Shown piece by piece: positions 31,721 through 43,643 of a DNA stretch of 64,000 nucleotides. A program made the position numbers and the translations under genes. Numbering within the stretch: the first letter of the stretch is position 1; the number at the start of each line of letters is the position of its first letter. The notes below the pieces were generated by a model that was not told where the DNA came from, did not search any database, and saw only the letters and a program-made list of their open reading frames with translations. Location: positions 1 through 64,000 of the forward strand of contig JAJTHN010000056.1 of the NCBI GenBank assembly GCA_021297895.1. Direction: 5' to 3'. The DNA is from Phycisphaeraceae bacterium (GTDB lineage: Bacteria > Planctomycetota > Phycisphaerae > Phycisphaerales > UBA1924).

Positions 31721-33592
31721 ATGTTCAACACGGTCTCACGGTTCACCGCCGCATCCTCAATCCCGAAGCAGGCCGCCACGGATCTCCGCGTTTCGCGGCT
31801 GGTCCTTCTGACGCTCACGCTGCTGTGCATCCTCACGGGCACGCTCGTTCCGAACGTCGCCGAGGCGCGTCAGACCATCCCCGGCACGGTCACGAGCGAC
31901 CCGCGCATCGACCCGTTGACCGGACGCGACCTGGCCAACTGGCCGCCCGATCGGGACTTCGACCATCGGCACCTCAAGCTCGAGATCGACATTCCGGACA
32001 TGGAGGTGCCCCAGTTCGCGGCAACCGCGACGCTCGAAATCGAGGCCTTGGGCATGCCGCGGTCAAGCCTTCGCCTCGACGCACGCCGCACGATGACGTT
32101 CTCATCGATCCGCGTCAACGACACGCCGGCCAAGTTCACGCACGAGCGCGATGTGCTGACGATCGACATCACCCCGCCGCTGCAGCCCGGTGCAAAGGCG
32201 ATGGTCCGCATGGAGTACTCCGCCGACGAGCCCTTCGGCGAGGGCGTGGGGCTGAACTGGTTCCGCACGCGTCCCGGCAGAGAGAACGAAGGCGCGATGC
32301 TGTACTCGCAGGGTCAGGCCAACTGGAACAGCTATTGGTTCCCCTGTCACGACTTCCCCAATGAGCGTTTGAGCACGGAGATCATCGCCACCGTGCCCGC
32401 CGGGTACACCGTCGTCAGCAATGGCCGCGAGGTCGACCGCAAGTCCGAAGGCGACCGCGTCCGATCGCACTGGCTTCAGGAGAAGCCCCATCCGGCGTAC
32501 CTCGTGGTGCTCATCGTCGGCAAGTTCGACATCGTTGATGTTGGCGGCGCCGACACGCTCCGCCCGGGCCTGCCCATGCCCGTCTACGGCCCGCCGGGCT
32601 CGGCCGACGCCCTGCGGGAGGTCTTCAAGATCACGCCGCGCGCGATCGCGATGTTCGAGCGGCTGCTCGGCGAGCCCTACCCGTGGGATCAGTACGCGCA
32701 GATCATCGTCCGCAACTTCCGCTGGCAGGGCATGGAGAACACCGGTGCCAGCACGCTCAACGAGTTCGTCGCCGGCGGAAACGTCAACGCCCGCGAAGAT
32801 CTGATCATCCACGAGATCGTCCATCAATGGTTGGGCAATCTCGTGACATGCAGGTCGTGGGAGCATGTCTGGCTTCAGGAGGGATTCGCCACGCTGGCCG
32901 AGGCCCTCTGGGTCGAGGAGCGCGACGGCCGCGACGCATACCTCGCGCGCGTGGCTTCCGCGATCGAGCGTCTGGACAAGACGCTCACCGGTCGCGCGCC
33001 GATCGACATCCCGCTCGTCTCCAACCGATACTCCGAGCCCGACGACACTTTCGTCAAGCCGGAGGACGCGTACATCAAGGGCGGCATGGTCCTTCACATG
33101 CTCCGCGAGCAGGTCGGCAATGACCTCTTCTGGCGGGCGACGCGGCTCTACCTCCAACGCGGCAAGCGGACGGGCCTCGTCGAGACCGACGATCTCCGCC
33201 GGGCGTTCGAGTACACCACCGGGCGGAGTTTCGAAAGGTTCTTTGACCAGTGGACACGCCGACCCGGCATGCCCCGCCTGTCGATCGACCTGCGATGGGA
33301 TGCACCGACCCAGACGCTGACCGTCACCGCCGAGCAAACCCAGTTCATCGACGCGGACAACCCGGCCTACGCCCTGCGCATCCCGATTGTCGCGACGCTC
33401 GCCAACGGCACACGCCAGACCATCAACATCGACACCGCGCAGCGTCGGGTCGAGTCAAGGCTGCGTCTACCCGCGGCACCGACGAACCTCTCCGTCGATC
33501 CTGACCTTACCAACCTCGCGGTCTACCGCGTGACAAAGCCCCAGCCCGCTCCCGTCGAGCCGCCGCCCGCCGACGTCCCGGGCGACCGCTGA
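31721..33592 (+). CDS. Secreted M1-family zinc aminopeptidase
   Basis: 623 residues. A signal peptide (about 1-50, 'LVLLTLTLLCILTGTLVPN') precedes an aminopeptidase-N-like beta domain and the catalytic domain. The exopeptidase motif reads 'WQGMENTGAS' in place of GAMEN, and the zinc site is 'HEIVHQWLGN' followed 18 residues later by Glu in 'LQEGFA'. 'YIKGGMVLHML' carries the usual C-terminal catalytic-domain pattern. It ends after a short beta domain and a Pro-rich tail, so it lacks the long helical C-domain of PepN. It likely trims peptides in the periplasm. AGGA lies 6 nt before the ATG. A paralogue starts 13 nt after its stop. Confidence 0.92.
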   Translation: MFNTVSRFTAASSIPKQAATDLRVSRLVLLTLTLLCILTGTLVPNVAEARQTIPGTVTSDPRIDPLTGRDLANWPPDRDFDHRHLKLEIDIPDMEVPQFAATATLEIEALGMPRSSLRLDARRTMTFSSIRVNDTPAKFTHERDVLTIDITPPLQPGAKAMVRMEYSADEPFGEGVGLNWFRTRPGRENEGAMLYSQGQANWNSYWFPCHDFPNERLSTEIIATVPAGYTVVSNGREVDRKSEGDRVRSHWLQEKPHPAYLVVLIVGKFDIVDVGGADTLRPGLPMPVYGPPGSADALREVFKITPRAIAMFERLLGEPYPWDQYAQIIVRNFRWQGMENTGASTLNEFVAGGNVNAREDLIIHEIVHQWLGNLVTCRSWEHVWLQEGFATLAEALWVEERDGRDAYLARVASAIERLDKTLTGRAPIDIPLVSNRYSEPDDTFVKPEDAYIKGGMVLHMLREQVGNDLFWRATRLYLQRGKRTGLVETDDLRRAFEYTTGRSFERFFDQWTRRPGMPRLSIDLRWDAPTQTLTVTAEQTQFIDADNPAYALRIPIVATLANGTRQTINIDTAQRRVESRLRLPAAPTNLSVDPDLTNLAVYRVTKPQPAPVEPPPADVPGDR

Positions 33593-33604: not shown

Positions 33605-36600
33605 ATGCTTCCGCCAGAGCGCCATGCCCGTCCATCCTCCGCCCCCATTCCGACACCTGCACCCATGATCACCCACGATCGCTTCAATGCCCGTCGCGTA
33701 TCGAGCCGCTCCTCGGCCCCCGCACGCCTCGCCAGGATCCTCGTCCTGACGGGCACCTCGGTGGGCCTGATCGCCCCGGCAGCCGCTCTCGCGTTCGACC
33801 TGCACGACTTCTCGTGCGAGCACTGCCGCGCAGAGTTCGCGCGGGCCATGGCCCGTCGAGACACAGGCCCGCGCGCCGACGAGTTTGACGCGGCCACCGG
33901 CCGCGACCTGCGGAACTTCGCGCCGGATCGCTCCGCGGATCTTCAGCACCTCAAGCTCGAACTGTCGATCCCGGACATGAACATCCCGCGCCTCTCGGGC
34001 GTCGCGACGATCAGTTTCGAGGCCATCGGCTCCCCGGTCGACCGAATCGTGCTCAACGCCCACCTGCTGCGGATCGAGGGCGTCGAGTTCCAGGGCAAGC
34101 CCGTGCCGTACGAACACGACAGCCGCACGCTCCGCATCCGCATCGAGCCGCCGCTGCCCGAGGGCCAGCGCGATGACGTGACCGTTCGCTACACACTCAA
34201 CGACCCGCCCGAAGGACTGACCTGGACGCTCGAATCGCCCGCGTGGCCGGGCCGACCGGCGCAGATCCACACCCAAGGCCAGCCGGAAACCAACCGCTAC
34301 TGGTTCCCAACGCACGACTCACCAAACGAGCGGCTCAGCACCGAGACCATCGTCACGGTGCCGGAGGGATACCAGGTCGTTTCCAACGGCAAGTTGCTCT
34401 CGCGAAAGGTCACCGACAACCCCGACTTCGTCGGCGGCAAGGCCGAGACGTTCCACTACCTCCAGCGCAAGGAGCACGTCCCGTACCTGGTCTCGCTGAT
34501 CGTCGGCAAGTTCGATGTCGTCGATGTGGGCACGAAGGAACTGCCAATGCCCGTGTTCGTGCCGCCCGGAACGGGGCCGCTCGTGCAGCAGACCTACGGC
34601 CGGACGCCGCAGATGATGCGCGTGTTCCAGAACGTCCTGGAAGAGCAGTACCCGTGGGATCAGTACGCCCAGGCCGTCGTCTGGAACTTCGGTGCCGGCG
34701 GCATGGAGAACACCAGCGCCACCACGATGTACGACACGGCGATTCTCTCGAAGCAGGCCCTCCTCGACGGCGACCTTGACCGGCTCATCGCCCACGAACT
34801 GGCGCACCAGTGGTTCGGCAACTTCCTGACCTGCAATTCCTGGGAGCACATCTGGCTCAACGAGGGCTTCGCGACATACTTCGAGAGCGTCTGGCTCGAA
34901 GAACGCGACGGCGTGAACAGCTACTACTGGGGCATCTGGAACGACCGCACGCGCCTTGCGATGAACGACGCGCCCGACGCCCGCAACGACACGCCAAGCG
35001 CCCCCGAGGCGCAGGGCATGGCCTCGAAGGTCTACCGCGAGCCGTGGGACGTCTTCCGCCGTCCGGCCAATCCGTATCCCAAGGGATCGCTCGTTCTGCA
35101 CATGCTCCGCGTCCGCTACGGAGACAACCTCTTCCGCCAGATGCTCATCGAGTACGTCGAGCGCCACAAGAACCGAACGGTCGAGACCAGCGACTTCCGC
35201 AAAGTCGTCGAGGACCTCTCGGGCGAGAGCCTCGAGCGGTTCTTCAATCAGTGGGTGTATCGGCCCGGCGTGCCCCGGGTGCGCGTCTCGCCGCGCTGGA
35301 TCGCGGGCACAAAGACGCTTGAGGTCGAGATCGAGCAGCTGCAGAACATCGACGCGTGGAACCCGGCATTCGACCTCGACATACCGGTATGGGTCTCCAT
35401 GACCGACGACCCGGGCGTGAGCGACTGGATCAAGCTCCCCGCACGCACCGAAACACGCACCAATGTCGCTCGTTTCGAGCTCAACCGCGAGCCGCGGCTC
35501 ATTACCGTCGACCCCATGCTCGCCAGCGCCGCGATCTACGAGGTTCAGAGCCCCGCCCCGATGCTCGCTCGACTGATCAACAACGGTCCGACGCTCGTGT
35601 CGCGGCTTCAGGCCATGTCCGACCTCGACCGCGCATCCCGAGGTCCGGACAACGCGCTCAGCGCCGAGTCCGCTCGCCCGCTGGTGGAGATTGCCCGAAA
35701 CGAACGCGCGTTCTTCGCCACCCGAGTGCACGCGCTGACCACACTGGGCCGCGCCCGCTCCGCTTCGCTCCTGACCGATCTCGCACGCAGCCCCGCAAAG
35801 GACGCACGGGTACGCCGCGCGTATGCCGATGCCGTGGGCCGGCTCATCGGCGAGGATTCGGGTAGGGATCTGGACGAGCCGACGCGCCAGGCTGTGCTCG
35901 CCGCGCTTGCGCCGCTGGCCCAGAGTGATGAGAGCTTCGCGACGCGTGCCAGCGCCCTGCGATCCCTCGGACGGCTCAACGACGAACGCGCGATCCCCAT
36001 CATTCTCGCGGCACTGGAGCAGGAAAGCCAGCACGACCAGATCCGCCAGGGCGCGATCGACGCGCTCGGCAGAATGAAGCGCCCCGAAACTCTCCCCGCG
36101 CTCGTCCGCATGACCGACCCCGGAAGGCTCAATCGCACGCGCGCCGCGGCGATCCGCGCCATCGGGGAGTTCGCCCCCGTCGCCCCGTCGCAGGTCGCCG
36201 AAGCCCTGATGCCGCTGCTGCTCGACCGCGAATCACGCGTCGTCCGCAGCGCCGGCGAGGTGCTCAGCACCCTCGCCGATCCTCGTGTAGGCGAGGCACT
36301 CACGCGACACGCGGGCGCAGCCCGGTCGGACAATCAGAAGCGGCAGGCCCAGGCATGGCTCGAATCATCGCGAAGGGCCAGCGATCCCGCGGCGGCCACC
36401 CTCGCCCGCGCTCAGGAGGAGGATCGCCAGCGTGCCGAACGCGAGCGCCTAGCCGCACAGGCCGCGCTCACAGCCGAACAACTCCGTGCAGCGATGTCTC
36501 AGGACGACGCGGCTCGCACCGCGGACATGGAACGGGTCCGCCAGGAGCGCGAGCGGCTGGAACAGGACCGGGCGGCCATGGAAGCCGCACGGCTGGCCGG

Positions 36601-37903
36601 CGATGCCGATCGGCAGAGACTCGAGGCCGAGCGCGACGCCGAACGCCAACGCGCCGAACAGGAACGCTCCGCCCGCGAGGCGACGATCGCCCGCATGGAG
36701 GAGGAGCGCCGTGCTCGCGAAGCCGCAGCGTTGCAGGCCGAGCAGGAACGACAGGCTCGCGAGGCCGCGGCGCTGAAGGCGGAGCAAGAGCGTCGCGCCC
36801 GCGAGGAGGCCGCGGCACGCGCCGAACAGGAACGCCAGGCGGCGGAACTCGCTCGCCAGCGTGCCGCGGAGGCCGAAGCCCAGCAGCAGCGCCTCCGCGA
36901 CGAAAAGAAGAGAATGCAGGATGAACTCGAGGCTGCGCGCCAGCGCACCGAGCAGATCCGCAAGGAGATGCAGGACCAGATCGCCGCTCTGGAACGGGAG
37001 CGAGAGGCCGCACGTCAGGCCGCACTCGCCGCCGAAGCGGCGCAAGCAGCCCAGGCCGCCCAGCCCGCTCCGCAGCCCCCCACCGCTCCGATCGAGCCAA
37101 CGCCGCAGCCCGCCCCCGCTCCGACCACGCCCGCCCAGCCGAGTGCCGATTCGACCCCCGCCGTCGATGCGCAACTCCGAGAGCTCCGCACTCAGCAGCA
37201 GATCCTTGCTGATCAACTCCGATCCGCGCAGGAGGAGCAGGCCCGCATGGCCCTTGAACTCCAGAATGCGCGCGCCGAACGCGAGCGCCTGGCCCAGCAG
37301 CGCACCGCACCCGCCGCTTCGGCGACCGCTCCGGCCACGGCACTCATCCGCGACCCGGCGTGGCTGCCCATCCGCAGTATCGCCGATTGGGTTCAGGGCG
37401 ATGCCGAACTCCGCGAAGCCTCGATGGACCCTGCGGGCTTCTTCGCCCGCTACGGCTTCATCGTCGAGACCTACAACGGCACGCACTACCTGCTCGTGTG
37501 GAATCGCCCGGGCTTCCGGCTCACGCAGCAGACCGGCGCATGGCGGGTTCTCCGAACGCTCGTGGCCAACGATGCGAACGGCCACTTCGTGCAGTTCACG
37601 CTCGACGACACCGGCGCCAGGCTCCTGGGCGATCTGACACAGGCCAACATCGGGCGCAACATGGCCATCATCGTGAACGATGTGGTCTATCTCGCCCCGC
37701 AGATCGCCAGCCGCGTCGGGCGTCAGGCCCAGCTCGCCGGGTCATTCAGTGCCGAGGAAGCGAACAAGCTCTCGCAGGACCTCTCCCGCCCCGGAGCGCT
37801 GACCATGCGAATCGCCGTCTCGCCCGGCGAACTCCCCGGCGAGCGCGACCTGCGCCAGGACATGCTGCTCTACGGCCCCGCCGGCAAACCGCCGACCCCC
37901 TGA
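33605..37903 (+). CDS. M1 metallopeptidase fused to HEAT-like repeats, coiled coil and SecD P1-head-like domain
   Basis: 1,432 residues in five parts. (1) Signal peptide, about 1-64 (core 'ILVLTGTSVGLIAPAAALA'); Met21 is an alternative start. (2) M1 peptidase, about 85-650: 'GAGGMENTSA', zinc site H397-E398-x-x-H401 in 'HELAHQWFGN' and E420 in 'LNEGFAT'. (3) HEAT-like helical pairs, about 658-918. (4) Charged coiled coil rich in E, R, A and Q, about 937-1142, a Pro/Ala linker to about 1182, and a second short coil to about 1235. (5) About 1249-1419, resembling the SecD periplasmic P1 head: 'GTHYLLVW', 'VQFTLDDTGARLLGDL', 'NIGRNMAIIVNDVVYLAPQI' and 'LAGSFSAEEANKLSQDL'. Parts 2 and 4 are firm; part 5 is a motif-level match. 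Probably periplasmic or surface-exposed. Confidence 0.88.
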   Translation: MLPPERHARPSSAPIPTPAPMITHDRFNARRVSSRSSAPARLARILVLTGTSVGLIAPAAALAFDLHDFSCEHCRAEFARAMARRDTGPRADEFDAATGRDLRNFAPDRSADLQHLKLELSIPDMNIPRLSGVATISFEAIGSPVDRIVLNAHLLRIEGVEFQGKPVPYEHDSRTLRIRIEPPLPEGQRDDVTVRYTLNDPPEGLTWTLESPAWPGRPAQIHTQGQPETNRYWFPTHDSPNERLSTETIVTVPEGYQVVSNGKLLSRKVTDNPDFVGGKAETFHYLQRKEHVPYLVSLIVGKFDVVDVGTKELPMPVFVPPGTGPLVQQTYGRTPQMMRVFQNVLEEQYPWDQYAQAVVWNFGAGGMENTSATTMYDTAILSKQALLDGDLDRLIAHELAHQWFGNFLTCNSWEHIWLNEGFATYFESVWLEERDGVNSYYWGIWNDRTRLAMNDAPDARNDTPSAPEAQGMASKVYREPWDVFRRPANPYPKGSLVLHMLRVRYGDNLFRQMLIEYVERHKNRTVETSDFRKVVEDLSGESLERFFNQWVYRPGVPRVRVSPRWIAGTKTLEVEIEQLQNIDAWNPAFDLDIPVWVSMTDDPGVSDWIKLPARTETRTNVARFELNREPRLITVDPMLASAAIYEVQSPAPMLARLINNGPTLVSRLQAMSDLDRASRGPDNALSAESARPLVEIARNERAFFATRVHALTTLGRARSASLLTDLARSPAKDARVRRAYADAVGRLIGEDSGRDLDEPTRQAVLAALAPLAQSDESFATRASALRSLGRLNDERAIPIILAALEQESQHDQIRQGAIDALGRMKRPETLPALVRMTDPGRLNRTRAAAIRAIGEFAPVAPSQVAEALMPLLLDRESRVVRSAGEVLSTLADPRVGEALTRHAGAARSDNQKRQAQAWLESSRRASDPAAATLARAQEEDRQRAERERLAAQAALTAEQLRAAMSQDDAARTADMERVRQERERLEQDRAAMEAARLAGDADRQRLEAERDAERQRAEQERSAREATIARMEEERRAREAAALQAEQERQAREAAALKAEQERRAREEAAARAEQERQAAELARQRAAEAEAQQQRLRDEKKRMQDELEAARQRTEQIRKEMQDQIAALEREREAARQAALAAEAAQAAQAAQPAPQPPTAPIEPTPQPAPAPTTPAQPSADSTPAVDAQLRELRTQQQILADQLRSAQEEQARMALELQNARAERERLAQQRTAPAASATAPATALIRDPAWLPIRSIADWVQGDAELREASMDPAGFFARYGFIVETYNGTHYLLVWNRPGFRLTQQTGAWRVLRTLVANDANGHFVQFTLDDTGARLLGDLTQANIGRNMAIIVNDVVYLAPQIASRVGRQAQLAGSFSAEEANKLSQDLSRPGALTMRIAVSPGELPGERDLRQDMLLYGPAGKPPTP

Positions 37904-37920: not shown

Positions 37921-38667
37921 TCAGGGCCCTGTGTCCTCAAGGCTGCGAGGTGATGTGCTCGCGACCAGCCGAATCGGCTCGATCCGGTCGGCGTTGGCCA
38001 TGAGTGCCTTCTCGACGAACTCGCCGCGCTGCGCGTCCCATTCGTTGACCACCCATGCCTGCCGCTCGCCGTCGTACTCCGCGTAGCTGTTGCCCTGCGG
38101 CATGACGGTCATGTCGATCGTCGCGCGGCGCAGCCTCGGGCCAATGTCGTACTCAAGTTCAAACGTCGCCCGCAGCACGCCATCGAGCAGAGGCCGCTCG
38201 GTCCGAGTCACCTCCGAGCCGACGGTGCGATCGACGATGAGCCAGATCACCTTCGGGCCGCGGAGATTCTGCGTCACGCTCCCGATGCTCACGCTCGTCG
38301 CATCGCGAACCTCCAGCGTCGTCACCTCGCGAAGGTCCGCATCCGGATCCTCAGCCGAGACAAACTGGATGCGATCGCCGACGATCGGGTTCTCATCCGG
38401 GTCCAGCACATCGCCCGGATAGGGCCCGAACTCATCGCCCGTCCGCACCAGCGCGAGCATGCGATGCATCACCGTTCGCGCCAGCACCTGCGTGCTTGCG
38501 CCCTCGCTTATCGACGTGAATCGCTTGAAGAGCACGTCCAGCGCAACCAGCGTCGAGGCCATGATCGTCGCGCTGATCGTCAGGGCGATCAGCAGTTCGA
38601 TCATCGAGAAACCTCGCCCGCACTCTCGCCTCGAGGCTCCGGCCTGTTTCAGTTCGGAGTGCTTCAC
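37921..38667 (-). CDS. Type IV pilin/pseudopilin-like protein (PilW-type position)
   Basis: 248 residues. A prepilin leader ends at 'GRGFSMIELLIALTISATIM', with the Gly-Phe cleavage site and Glu at +5 recognised by prepilin peptidase, followed by a hydrophobic helix and a beta-rich globular part. It is the last gene of the pil cluster. The start is GTG within a GTGA overlap with the upstream stop, preceded by a strong AAGGAGG, so translation is coupled. A minor pilin or secretion pseudopilin; which system is not clear. Confidence 0.85.
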   Translation of the reverse strand: MKHSELKQAGASRRECGRGFSMIELLIALTISATIMASTLVALDVLFKRFTSISEGASTQVLARTVMHRMLALVRTGDEFGPYPGDVLDPDENPIVGDRIQFVSAEDPDADLREVTTLEVRDATSVSIGSVTQNLRGPKVIWLIVDRTVGSEVTRTERPLLDGVLRATFELEYDIGPRLRRATIDMTVMPQGNSYAEYDGERQAWVVNEWDAQRGEFVEKALMANADRIEPIRLVASTSPRSLEDTGP

Positions 38668-41555
38668 TTGCGGCCCTCCTTGTAGGTGCCCAGGACCGGA
38701 TACGCGGACAAAGGCAGCATGATCCCGTCGGGCATCGGCGCATCCGGATCCCAGTTCAACGCGACTCGACCCATGCCGTAGAACGGCACCGCACGCGCGC
38801 CCGCCGCGATCTGTGCGGCGGTCGGATTCTGCGTCGGTCCAAGGTCCGGCAGGCCGTCACCGTCCAGGTCCCACCCGACGATTCGCTGGCCGTTGACCAG
38901 CGGCAGGGTCGCCGGGTCGAGCGACTCGCGATCACCATCATCCGGTCCGAAGTAACCGAGCGAGACGTTGAAGTTCGCGGTGTTGCCCACGGGCTGACCG
39001 TACTGGACCAGCGGGCCCTCGCCGCGAACCGGGGCGTAGGTTGTCAGCAGCGTGCCGTTGATCGTCGTGGTGCCGCGCACGTCCAGCACTCCGGCGACGA
39101 TCGTGCCCTGCAGCGTGACATTCTGCGCAGCACTGGCGAGCCCGGCGGTGACAGCGGCATCCGTCGGTGAGTTGAAGTGACCGATATCCACTGAGTAATT
39201 CGGTGCCATGAGCGAGCTCTTGGCAATCTCCGGCAGGTCCGCCGAGTCCGGATTCATCTGCGGGTCGCTCGGGCTGGTCGGGTGCCTCTGGCTGAACTGC
39301 GTCGAGCCGGTGAACTGGATCTTGTTACGCACGTTCTCAAACACCTGAGGCGTATCCGTCGCGAGGCTCCCCACAAACGTCGAGTTGTGGAAGCGGATGT
39401 TGTTGCTGTACAGCTTCGTGTCGCGGGCCGCACCCGTTCGGGTCTGGCCGTCGATCACGGGAGGATCCGGAAAGTCGTTGTAGTTCGCAGGGCCGTCGAT
39501 GATGTTGCCGGTGGTGTACCGGAGAAAGTCCGACTTATCCAGCGGCGCCGTGGTCGCGACCGGGCGGCCCTGCGTCGCGTTCCACTCCAGCCGTCCGTAT
39601 AGCGCCCAGTTCTGATGCGTGTTGCCCTGGATCGACTGCACATGGGTCACGCCGATAAACGTGCAGTTGACGAACAGCGCGTTGTTGCCCCGCGGGATTC
39701 GCACATTGCGGAAGGTCATGTTCTCGTACCGCGGCCGGATGTACCAGTCCGTGAACTGCGGGCTGTTGAACGGCATCTTCTCCCACAAGTCCTGCCCCGT
39801 CAGCGCCCGAGCCTGCGCGTTGGTCATCGTCGCGGGATTGAAGTACCGCGGCCGGCTGCGATCCGACTTGGTCTCGACGTATGTCGCCAGATCCGAAGTC
39901 CCGATGCCGAGCTGCGCCGCGACCTGCTGGGCAAAGGTCTGCCCATCGGCGAGATTGGTCATGCTGTTACGCGAGTTCGTGAACGAACTGTCGGAGATGC
40001 TCGGCAAGTCATCGGCGGAGCGCCCAAAGAGCGTCGGTGCTGTTCCCTTCGCGGCGACGGTCGAGCCCTGCAGATATGTCGAGAGATTCGCCCCGCCGCG
40101 CGCCAGGCTCCACGCCTGGCTCGTCGCGCGGAACTCCAGACGGCCGCGGACCTTGGCGTAGGGATCGTTCCGATCCAGCACGCCGTTGCGCCAGCCCGCC
40201 ATCACATCAGGATACAGCCCGGTGATCGCGTCGAAGTCCGTGATCGCCTCGCCCGAGTCCCACCGGCCGTTGTTGTTCGAGTCGGTGAATCCGGAGACCT
40301 GGTTCCGATTGCGGTCCGGCACACAACTGTCGATCAGCAGGGCCAGATCTTCGTTGACGGTGAACTCCGCCGTGTTGCCCGCCGCGGGCGTGCCAGCGGT
40401 CAGGGCGTTGCTCAGCGTCACGCGTCGATCGCCGTTGGAGTCAAAGTGCGACAGGAAGATGTCGTAGTCGTCAACATACCCATCGCGCGTGAAGTCGGCG
40501 AACGCGCTGTCGGCCTGGCCATCGTTGTTGTAGTCGAGCGCATTGGACGGAATGCCCAGGGACTCCGTGCGGTGATTGACGCGAAGCCGCGAGTCGCTGT
40601 CGACATCGCGGGCCCTTACGCCCGTGAAGAAGTCGTTGAGTTTCCGGTCGAGCGTGCTGTCAAGCTCGTAGAAGTCCGATCGCGTCACGAGCGGATCGCC
40701 GTTGGTCGAGGCGACATCGTTGTAGGTCACGCCGAGATTGCCGTTGACCATCGCGTTGCGACCGACCAGCACGCGCGACGCCGAGAGAATGCCGTGACGG
40801 TGGCGCTTTGCGATGCGGAAATCCTGCTGGATCGTCCGCGTCAGCGCCCGCGAAGCCTCACCGGCCGACGCCGCACCGTACGCGAAACTCGAACCGTCAC
40901 GCGAAACGCTCGAGTACCCCGTGACGAACACGCGGACCGTGACGCCGTCGGCCAGCGGGGCATAGACGATCTGGTAAGCAGACGGACTCGCGGGAGGGGC
41001 CCCGTTCTCGCGATCCTGCGTCGTGCCCTCCAGCGCAATCGCCGGAGTGCTGACCCAGTTGCGATCGCGGTACTCATCGTCATCCGTGCCGGCGGGCGCA
41101 CTGACCTTCGCGGCGTCCTCCGGAACACCGGAGATCGACACGGTGTTCACATCCGCGTTGTGGATGTTCACCAACGCATCAGCGATGCCTCGCGGCGTGG
41201 TCTGCTCGGCGTATCCGATCGGCGGCATCACCCGAACCTGACCGTCGCCCGATTCGGGCGCGCCATCCCAGATTCGCTCTCCGAAGCCCTGATCCACCTG
41301 CCCGCGCTCAACAACAAACCTTGCCGAAGCCGACGCCAGCCGCGATGCGGCAACACTCAGCCCGGTCTCCGCCGCCGCCAGGGCGGAATTGACCTGAATG
41401 TGGGTCGCCGCGGTACGCAGGTTGCCCTGACTCACGACCGCAAGCGCGACGCTCAGCGACCCGAAGATCACCAGGAACATCATCGCCAGCACGGACACCA
41501 CGCCGCGCCGTCGATTCGCGAACATCAGCTTGGTCGCACGCTCAAACGCTCGCAT
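38664..41555 (-). CDS. Large PilX-like pilus assembly protein with EF-hand-like loops
   Basis: 963 residues. The N-terminus has a basic stretch and one helix, 'RRRGVVSVLAMMFLVIFGSL', followed by 'NLRTAATHIQVNSALAAAET', the classic PilX-type start without a cleavable GF(T/S)LxE leader. The rest is a large, mostly beta domain. Inside lie Asp/Asn-rich loops: 'DYNNDGQADSAFADFTRDGY', 'DSNGDRRVT' and 'DSNNNGRWDSGEAITDFD' (about 335-445), and 'DLDGDGLPDLG' near 900. They are typical of calcium-binding EF-hand or dockerin-like repeats. PilX proteins are usually under 250 residues, so this is an oversized relative. GAAGGGAA lies 5 nt before the ATG at 41555. Confidence 0.75.
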   Translation of the reverse strand: MRAFERATKLMFANRRRGVVSVLAMMFLVIFGSLSVALAVVSQGNLRTAATHIQVNSALAAAETGLSVAASRLASASARFVVERGQVDQGFGERIWDGAPESGDGQVRVMPPIGYAEQTTPRGIADALVNIHNADVNTVSISGVPEDAAKVSAPAGTDDDEYRDRNWVSTPAIALEGTTQDRENGAPPASPSAYQIVYAPLADGVTVRVFVTGYSSVSRDGSSFAYGAASAGEASRALTRTIQQDFRIAKRHRHGILSASRVLVGRNAMVNGNLGVTYNDVASTNGDPLVTRSDFYELDSTLDRKLNDFFTGVRARDVDSDSRLRVNHRTESLGIPSNALDYNNDGQADSAFADFTRDGYVDDYDIFLSHFDSNGDRRVTLSNALTAGTPAAGNTAEFTVNEDLALLIDSCVPDRNRNQVSGFTDSNNNGRWDSGEAITDFDAITGLYPDVMAGWRNGVLDRNDPYAKVRGRLEFRATSQAWSLARGGANLSTYLQGSTVAAKGTAPTLFGRSADDLPSISDSSFTNSRNSMTNLADGQTFAQQVAAQLGIGTSDLATYVETKSDRSRPRYFNPATMTNAQARALTGQDLWEKMPFNSPQFTDWYIRPRYENMTFRNVRIPRGNNALFVNCTFIGVTHVQSIQGNTHQNWALYGRLEWNATQGRPVATTAPLDKSDFLRYTTGNIIDGPANYNDFPDPPVIDGQTRTGAARDTKLYSNNIRFHNSTFVGSLATDTPQVFENVRNKIQFTGSTQFSQRHPTSPSDPQMNPDSADLPEIAKSSLMAPNYSVDIGHFNSPTDAAVTAGLASAAQNVTLQGTIVAGVLDVRGTTTINGTLLTTYAPVRGEGPLVQYGQPVGNTANFNVSLGYFGPDDGDRESLDPATLPLVNGQRIVGWDLDGDGLPDLGPTQNPTAAQIAAGARAVPFYGMGRVALNWDPDAPMPDGIMLPLSAYPVLGTYKEGRK

Positions 41556-41639
41556 GGCAGTTCCCTTCAAGCCCCCGGACCCGATACACGCCGTCGCCCT
41601 GCTCGGCCCGCTCCCCGACACCATCCGATCGTCCCGCCG

Positions 41640-42344
41640 TTACGGCTGAATGAACACAAGCCTCGCCATCTCCCGCGGCGCGGCATCCAACGGTCCCTGG
41701 TAGAACGCCGTGATCGTCACACGCAGCGGAAACTGATCCACCGCGACCGGAGGGCTGCTCTGGGTCGCGTTGCTCGCCACCGCCGTCGATGTGTCAAAGG
41801 GCAGCACCTTTTCCACCCGCACGCGCTGGCTCCACCCCTGCATGGAGACCGGCTCACCCTCGGCGTTCTCCATGATCGTGCCGTCGGGCATCACTTCGCT
41901 GATCGCCAGGCCCGCGGAGTCGATCGGCCCGGCGAACGTCGCGCCCGCGCCGAACGTCGCGCCGTCGTAGTCATCAAGGTCGTTGTAGTACAGGAACGAT
42001 GTCTCACTCGTCTCCGGCCCCCACCCCTGGAGCGTCGCCGACTGCCCCGTGCCCTCGAAGTACAGGCCCGTCACCGGATCGTGACGGGGCAGACGCCGCA
42101 TCCGCTCACGCAGCTCCGTACACAGGTACATCCCTGTCGCGGCACTTGTCGAGTAGCGATTGTGCGCAAAGAACATCGCCTGGCTTTCGATCAAGGCCAG
42201 CACGCCAACGCCCAGAATCACCAGCGCCAGCGCCGCCTCGAGCAGCGTGAATCCGCCGCGACGACGCGATCGCCCTCGCGTGCCTTCCCGCCGCCCCACG
42301 CGCCCCTGCACGCCCGCACGGTCGATCACTTCATGCGCGTTCAT
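41640..42344 (-). CDS. Type IV pilin/pseudopilin-like protein (PilV/GspI-type)
   Basis: 234 residues. A long basic leader ends at 'RRGGFTLLEAALALVILGVG', a textbook class III signal with Glu at +5, then the N-terminal pilin helix and a short beta domain. 'GMYLCTELRERMRRLP' directly after the helix is typical of PilV-type proteins. The ATG at 42344 has AAGGAGCGGAG upstream; an open frame continues further back without merit. It lies between pilC and the PilX-like gene, all on one strand. Confidence 0.88.
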   Translation of the reverse strand: MNAHEVIDRAGVQGRVGRREGTRGRSRRRGGFTLLEAALALVILGVGVLALIESQAMFFAHNRYSTSAATGMYLCTELRERMRRLPRHDPVTGLYFEGTGQSATLQGWGPETSETSFLYYNDLDDYDGATFGAGATFAGPIDSAGLAISEVMPDGTIMENAEGEPVSMQGWSQRVRVEKVLPFDTSTAVASNATQSSPPVAVDQFPLRVTITAFYQGPLDAAPREMARLVFIQP

Positions 42345-42416
42345 GCGTGCTCCGCTCCTTCCGTCCGACACTCCGCACCCGGTCGGCCGCACATCGCGGC
42401 CCCGCGATCCGAACCA

Positions 42417-43643
42417 TCACTTGACAATCTGCGACATCTTGAAGATCGGCAGGATGATCGCCATCGCGATGAAACCCACCACCGAGCCCATCAGGATGAT
42501 CATGATCGGCTCGATCATGCTGGTAACCGCCTTGATCTGATCCTTGAGCGTCTTGGCGTAGTACGTGCTGATTTCATCGAGCACCTCGCCGAGCTTGCCC
42601 GATTCCTCGCCCGCACTGATCATCTGGACCACCGCCTGCGGGAGCAGCTTTGTCCGCGTGAGCGTCGAGCAGATCTTCTTGCCCTGCTTGACGCTCGCCT
42701 CCACGCTCCGCCACATCGACTCGTACAGCCGATTGCCCGAGATATCGCCCGTGATGCTGATCACGTCAAGCATCGGCACGCCGGCATTGACCAGCTGGCC
42801 CATCGTCTGGAGCGATCGCGAGATGTACAGAGCCCGGAACATCCCCTTGACCACCGGGATGCTCAGCTTGGCCTTATCCAGGAAGAAGCCGCCGACCTCC
42901 GTTCGCGCAAAGGCGAAGAAGCCCGCCGCGACGACAACCAGGGCCCCGATGATGAACGGCCACCGCTGCACCATGAAGTCCGACACACCCATCAGGAAGT
43001 TCGTCGCCCACGGCAGCGCGTCCTCCTTGCCCTGGAAGACGGTCTTGAACTTGGGCAGCACGAACGTCAGCAGGAACACCGTCACCAGAACCGCCATCGT
43101 GCCGATCACGCCCGGGTAGATCGCTGCACCGACGACCATCTTGCGGGTCTCGATCTGCTGGGCGATGTAGTCGGCGATGCGATCGAGCATCTCCGCGAAC
43201 GAACCGGACATTTCCGACGCACGCGTCATGTTGATGTAGAGCGGGCCGAAGAGCTTCGGGTACTTCTGCAGCGCCTGGCTGAACTGCTTGCCCGCCTCGA
43301 CATCGTTCTTCAGAGACAGGATCACCTTCTTGAAGCCCGGATGCTGCGTCTGCTCCGCGATGCCCTCGAGCGCCGACCGCAGATTGATGCCCGCCCGCAT
43401 CATCACCGCCAGCTGCGTCGTGAAGTCCAGAACGTGCTTGGCCTTGGGCCGTCCCGCGTTCATGTCGCGGAACTTCTCCATCAGCGATGCACGGTCCAGA
43501 CCCGCGATCATCGGGTTGACCTGCAGCACGTGCTGGCCCTGATTGCGCAGGATCGTCGCGGCCGTCGCCACGCTGTCGGCAACGACAACGCCGCTGACGA
43601 CCTGCCCCGTGCTGTTGCGAACCTGATAGCGATAGTTCGGCAT
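42417..43643 (-). CDS. pilC: Type IV pilus/type II secretion inner-membrane platform protein
   Basis: 408 residues, PilC/GspF family. Two homologous helical cytoplasmic domains (about 70-195 and 273-395) surround three transmembrane segments. The first carries 'FTTQLAVMMRAGINLRSALE', the second 'SLQTMGQLVNAGVPMLDVIS'. The TM segments include 'VLVTVFLLTFVLPKF' and the C-terminal 'IMIILMGSVVGFIAMAIILP'. It forms the rotor-like platform that connects the assembly ATPase to pilin subunits. It starts 20 nt after the pilT stop, so the two are co-transcribed. The N-terminal 'MPNYRYQVRNSTGQVVSGVV' is standard. Confidence 0.94.
   Translation of the reverse strand: MPNYRYQVRNSTGQVVSGVVVADSVATAATILRNQGQHVLQVNPMIAGLDRASLMEKFRDMNAGRPKAKHVLDFTTQLAVMMRAGINLRSALEGIAEQTQHPGFKKVILSLKNDVEAGKQFSQALQKYPKLFGPLYINMTRASEMSGSFAEMLDRIADYIAQQIETRKMVVGAAIYPGVIGTMAVLVTVFLLTFVLPKFKTVFQGKEDALPWATNFLMGVSDFMVQRWPFIIGALVVVAAGFFAFARTEVGGFFLDKAKLSIPVVKGMFRALYISRSLQTMGQLVNAGVPMLDVISITGDISGNRLYESMWRSVEASVKQGKKICSTLTRTKLLPQAVVQMISAGEESGKLGEVLDEISTYYAKTLKDQIKAVTSMIEPIMIILMGSVVGFIAMAIILPIFKMSQIVK

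Follow-up and report, generated by a model that had tools for sequence, protein, structure and literature searches.

A SecD P1 head in permuted segment order at the C-terminus of a predicted exported M1 aminopeptidase of a Phycisphaeraceae bacterium

Here we describe a protein in which a SecD P1 head is attached, with its segments in swapped order, to the C-terminus of an M1 aminopeptidase that is predicted to be exported. The gene is located in the first 64,000 nucleotides of contig JAJTHN010000056.1 (termed the window here) from the assembly of a Phycisphaeraceae bacterium (G000), and the same permuted fusion was found in a second genus (G015). The presence of a swapped-order SecD head on a peptidase suggests the reuse of a gripping module outside the SecDF motor and shows that evolution can relocate and permute a domain belonging to a core export machine. 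The features are as follows; residue numbers refer to the whole frame.

31721-33592 (+): tandem M1 paralogue, 623 aa, without SecD head or HEAT repeats (frame list, Pfam)
33605-37903 (+): complete open frame of 1432 aa, predicted from frame, Pfam and codon usage to encode an exported M1 aminopeptidase that carries a permuted SecD head
33665-33793 (+): Met21 as the likely true start, with a Sec-type signal peptide at residues 21-63 (sequence, hydrophobicity)
33956-34417 (+): peptidase M1 N-terminal domain, residues 118-271 (Pfam PF17900)
34601-35254 (+): peptidase M1 catalytic domain, residues 333-550 (Pfam PF01433, residue check)
35642-36424 (+): HEAT-like helical region, about residues 680-940, equivalent of M1 domain IV (Pfam HEAT_2, orthologues, G015 fold match)
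36437-37060 (+): long E/R/A/Q-rich helix, residues 945-1152, missing in G015 (composition, periodicity)
37061-37156 (+): Pro/Ala linker, residues 1153-1184 (sequence)
37157-37333 (+): second, short helix-forming stretch, residues 1185-1243 (sequence)
37349-37792 (+): SecD P1 head (segment B), residues 1249-1396 (PF22599, sequence matches to SecDF in the PDB, fold)
37793-37879 (+): segment A, residues 1397-1425, which precedes the head in SecDF and follows it here (segment-A and SecDF profiles)

The reading frame and its M1 peptidase part

The frame is not interrupted, as the original prediction had stated. G+C at codon position 3 remains at 0.75-0.90 in every 150-codon block, and the frame therefore reads as coding throughout. 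Met21 is the likely true start because the signal peptide begins there: a basic stretch is followed by a hydrophobic core and by ALA, after which the signal peptide would be cleaved at a site placed by eye. Residues 42-66 form the only strongly hydrophobic stretch of the whole protein. Just past the signal peptide lies a C-x-x-C motif (FSCEHCR, residues 69-75, 33809-33829), and several orthologues carry such a motif at this place as well (CLHC, CQYC).

The zinc ligands His397, His401 and Glu420 and the general base Glu398 were found at exactly the positions named in the original prediction and make up a complete HExxH-x18-E site. The GxMEN exopeptidase motif is present (GGMEN at 365-369), the position of the catalytic tyrosine is filled by Tyr491 in PYPKGS, ahead of KGS, and both are invariant in an alignment of ten rows. 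All Pfam matches exceed the curated cut-offs (M1 4.5e-44, M1_N 2.3e-9, HEAT_2 6.1e-14, SecDF_P1_head 6.2e-17). The HEAT-like region is 26-36% identical to its orthologues. Such M1-HEAT orthologues, whose frames span about 870-1000 codons, are common across the family, and M1-HEAT proteins were found in many phyla. For the G015 orthologue, the structure prediction was matched to PepN, IRAP and ERAP across about 890 columns, with Foldseek E-values down to 3e-33; the HEAT-like part therefore corresponds to the helical domain that M1 enzymes usually have. Thus, of the architecture first regarded as unusual as a whole, only the C-terminal extension remains so, whereas the M1 and HEAT parts form an ordinary M1 layout. 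The protein shares the zinc site, GxMEN, the M1_N and catalytic domains and the HEAT-like domain with known M1 aminopeptidases (PepN, IRAP/ERAP, LTA4H and the Deinococcus M1 enzyme 6a8z), to which it adds a C-terminal helix, a linker and the SecD head. By its sequence it is the M1-HEAT orthologue of its lineage, a predicted exported (periplasmic) zinc aminopeptidase. The M1 paralogue ends 12 bases before the frame begins, and many relatives have the same tandem pair.

Between the HEAT-like region and the head, a coiled coil of about 200 residues had been proposed. The E/R/A/Q composition of the long helix is indeed that of a coiled coil or a single alpha-helix, but the heptad signal is borderline (power at 3.5 residues of 0.98 versus 0.96 for the 95% null) and the helix is not a constant part of the fusion. 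In G015 the C-terminal unit is attached to the HEAT part by about 30 Pro/Ala-rich residues without the long helix, and in the full-length model of this protein the linker (887-921) is disordered between enzyme and head. Because G015 has a short linker instead, the long helix can be regarded as a spacer that was added or lost. In G001, G007 and G009 the orthologue has a similar short helix at its end.

The C-terminal SecD head and its segment order

The SecD-profile search proposed with the original prediction gave a significant match of PF22599 (SecDF_P1_head) to residues 1323-1399 with 62 bits against a cut-off of 27. The NCBIfam SecD model TIGR01129 matched residues 1322-1405 at 3.5e-13 with a score under its full-length cut-off, as expected for a partial domain, and the solved SecDF 5xam was matched by sequence at 5.7e-9. 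For structure prediction with AlphaFold2, an alignment was used that combined residues 1249-1432 (184 aa) with the G015 unit and with SecDF segments from relatives, 25 in number. The resulting model has a mean pLDDT of 95.2 and a pTM of 0.87, and its first nine Foldseek matches are all SecDF or SecD. With VIA-align, a Z-score of 11.0 was obtained for SecDF 5xan (108 residues, 3.0 A), compared with 4.3 for the best unrelated chain. According to this model the C-terminal unit has the fold of the SecDF P1 head. The original claim of a SecD P1-head-like domain on an M1 peptidase, here one predicted to be exported, is thus supported by profile, sequence match to a solved structure, predicted fold and a second genome, and none of the three results named with it as refuting was obtained.

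The fusion head resembles the P1 heads of SecD and SecDF (PF22599; 3aqo, 5xan, 5xam) in profile, predicted fold and periplasmic side, and it shares lineage-specific stretches with the SecDF proteins of the same family at 31-42% identity. Unlike SecD and SecDF, the fusion lacks the transmembrane motor and the remaining P1 base, its segments are permuted and it is joined to a peptidase. No membrane segment was found beyond the signal peptide, and the transmembrane helices and proton path of a SecDF motor are accordingly missing. Both fusion genomes keep one true SecDF, which in G000 is located at C64.

The C-terminal block had been read as following the order of the SecD head. The head is present, but the last ~29 residues correspond to the segment that SecDF carries before its head, a permutation that was missed. 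In the SecDF of the same genome, GAGVLNFRIGVRPGDLTEEASLREQLRQRGP (segment A) is followed by ARWFRL... (head, segment B), whereas in the fusion segment B comes first and the chain closes with GALTMRIAVSPGELPGERDLRQDMLLYGP plus seven residues; the G015 fusion closes with NLSLRITPRPGELEDEAELRTTIRERGP plus two residues. This order first became apparent from secondary matches of the tail, which fell before the head in the SecDF proteins of G036, G063 and G070. A segment-A profile built from relatives, with the own SecDF left out, was run on the final 50 residues of each fusion and scored 25.1 and 31.3 bits, while none of 5000 shuffled versions of the P0001 tail exceeded 9.9 bits. When the tail was moved to the front, a single continuous match to the SecDF profile was obtained and the best-domain score increased from 140.6 to 163.3 (+22.7; shuffles at most 148.8) and from 84.9 to 110.7 (+25.8; at most 97.2), the real tail beating all of the 500 shuffled-tail controls. 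These sequence comparisons show that the segment order of the SecD head is swapped in the fusion relative to SecDF; none of the secDF genes examined has the permuted order. The VIA-align match to 5xan ends at model residue 149-150, and the tail is modelled with a confident strand (151-156) and helix (165-175). We infer from the model that the tail segment fills the same place in the fold as segment A of SecDF.

Distribution and origin of the fusion

The permuted unit was found in two of 163 genomes of the family, covering 74 genera, with E-values of 6.5e-104 (G000) and 1.2e-100 (G015); the next matches, at 1.8e-35, were SecDF-sized frames. A sample of 397 genomes from the class contained it twice, and one of 392 genomes from the phylum contained it once, in G000 itself. 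In G015 the permuted fusion lies in one frame on the orthologous protein, the unit is 31% identical, the two units have invariant positions in common and the M1 site is complete in both proteins. That two genes were joined by a sequencing or assembly error can be practically dismissed: the assembly is fragmented into 84 contigs, but another genus carries the same unit in frame, codon usage is continuous across the frame and a misjoin would lack a source, since no secDF gene examined has the permuted order. The survey of genomes suggested with the original prediction thus contradicts a merged-gene error.

Within G000, only SecDF and the fusion protein scored above the PF22599 cut-off; a third match (E 0.09) on a response regulator was considered noise. 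A 1350-aa frame in G006 was rejected as a long fusion, being only an open frame that lies upstream of an M1-HEAT protein of the ordinary kind. No SecD head was found at the locus itself in 80 M1-HEAT loci of named genomes from many phyla, and a single-sequence search of genome contigs with the whole protein retrieved no relative. Among the 61 genomes searched first, G021 alone gave no match to the SecDF P1 head. Neither a SecD-peptidase fusion nor a permuted SecD was described in the literature searched, mainly open papers, which is weak evidence of absence.

Judged by sequence, the head most likely derives from a copy of a SecDF gene of this lineage, attached with its segments in permuted order. 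The permutation could have arisen by a tandem duplication trimmed at both ends, leaving the head followed by the strand-helix segment that normally stands before it. In an alignment to solved SecDF, the strand after the head in SecD resembles the start of segment A, and a crossover at this short similarity is therefore a plausible route. A single origin of the two fusions is likely: in the M1 tree both fall into one weak group of four, and a sister relation is not rejected (p-AU 0.205). In the head tree, the branches are long and the origin of the two fused heads is not placed.

Possible roles of the head

In SecDF, the P1 head is described as having a substrate-binding pocket and as pulling chains when the proton-driven membrane part moves it (PMC11470409, PMC7793623). 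Because this membrane part is absent, the fusion cannot be a motor of the SecDF type; it could hold a chain and not pull it. Because the SecD head binds unfolded polypeptide, we propose that the tethered head would act as a passive grip, catching exported chains or peptides and holding them near the active site, so that the local substrate concentration for the exported aminopeptidase would be raised. The long helix of G000 would keep the grip at a distance from the enzyme or hold protomers together, and in G015 the short disordered linker would do the tethering. By analogy to SecDF, we give about an even chance to the head being a polypeptide-binding module that feeds or positions substrates for the peptidase. 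The wider reading, in which the head of a Sec motor escaped by circular permutation and is now a portable module feeding a periplasmic peptidase, is more tentative. For the two functions suggested originally, a peptide grip or a placement near emerging chains, the evidence on location is the signal peptide, and both are inferences.

It is rather unlikely that the head is a neutral or merely stabilizing decoration, that is, an accidentally duplicated piece of secDF that folds and has no dedicated role or aids folding and assembly. The fusion occurs in so few of the family genomes that it is generally not needed, and the long low-complexity helix is confined to G000. The head of G015 is strongly divergent, with a tree branch of 3.5 changes per column, and its part of the full-length model is of low confidence, which could mean relaxed constraint. 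However, an unneeded tail of 184 residues should decay, whereas this unit was kept in two genera with shared invariant positions, and the head of G000 is modelled with high confidence. Still less likely, the head might be a docking module that places the peptidase at the translocon exit, with PpiD-like chaperones, SecYEG or SecDF as partners, where emerging or stalled chains would be trimmed. In work on E. coli and Vibrio, cross-links were found between the SecD head and PpiD, and the head is located at the exit of SecY (PMC7793623, PMC11470409), and due to its signal peptide the protein would share a compartment with these partners, but it has no membrane anchor.

A role of the head as a tethered grip would be of wider interest, as polypeptide binding by the SecD head apart from the proton-driven part is hard to test within SecDF. 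A natural, soluble head-only protein that is apparently folded and permuted, and sits on an enzyme with measurable activity, would offer a direct test.

Several genomes of the same order encode small proteins of secreted or lipoprotein-like type, with frames of about 270-520 aa, that carry a SecDF P1 head without the motor. They were found in G027, G067, G040 and G060, at the following loci.

L097: 4492-5421 (-), free-standing head protein
L104: 3175-4077 (+), free-standing head protein
L099: 3559-4362 (-), free-standing head protein
L098: 3672-5225 (-), free-standing head protein

Two of them have a lipobox and one adjoins secDF. Like the fusion, they carry a SecD head outside the SecDF motor; in contrast to it, their segment order is normal as far as it was read, they have no peptidase and some bear a lipobox. 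If the portable-module reading is true, they would be further cases of reuse. Downstream of the fusion gene, convergent genes at 37921-43643 (-) resemble parts of type II secretion systems or type IV pili as named by eye, among them a GspF/PilC-like membrane protein and pseudopilin-like proteins that bear N-terminal methylation motifs.
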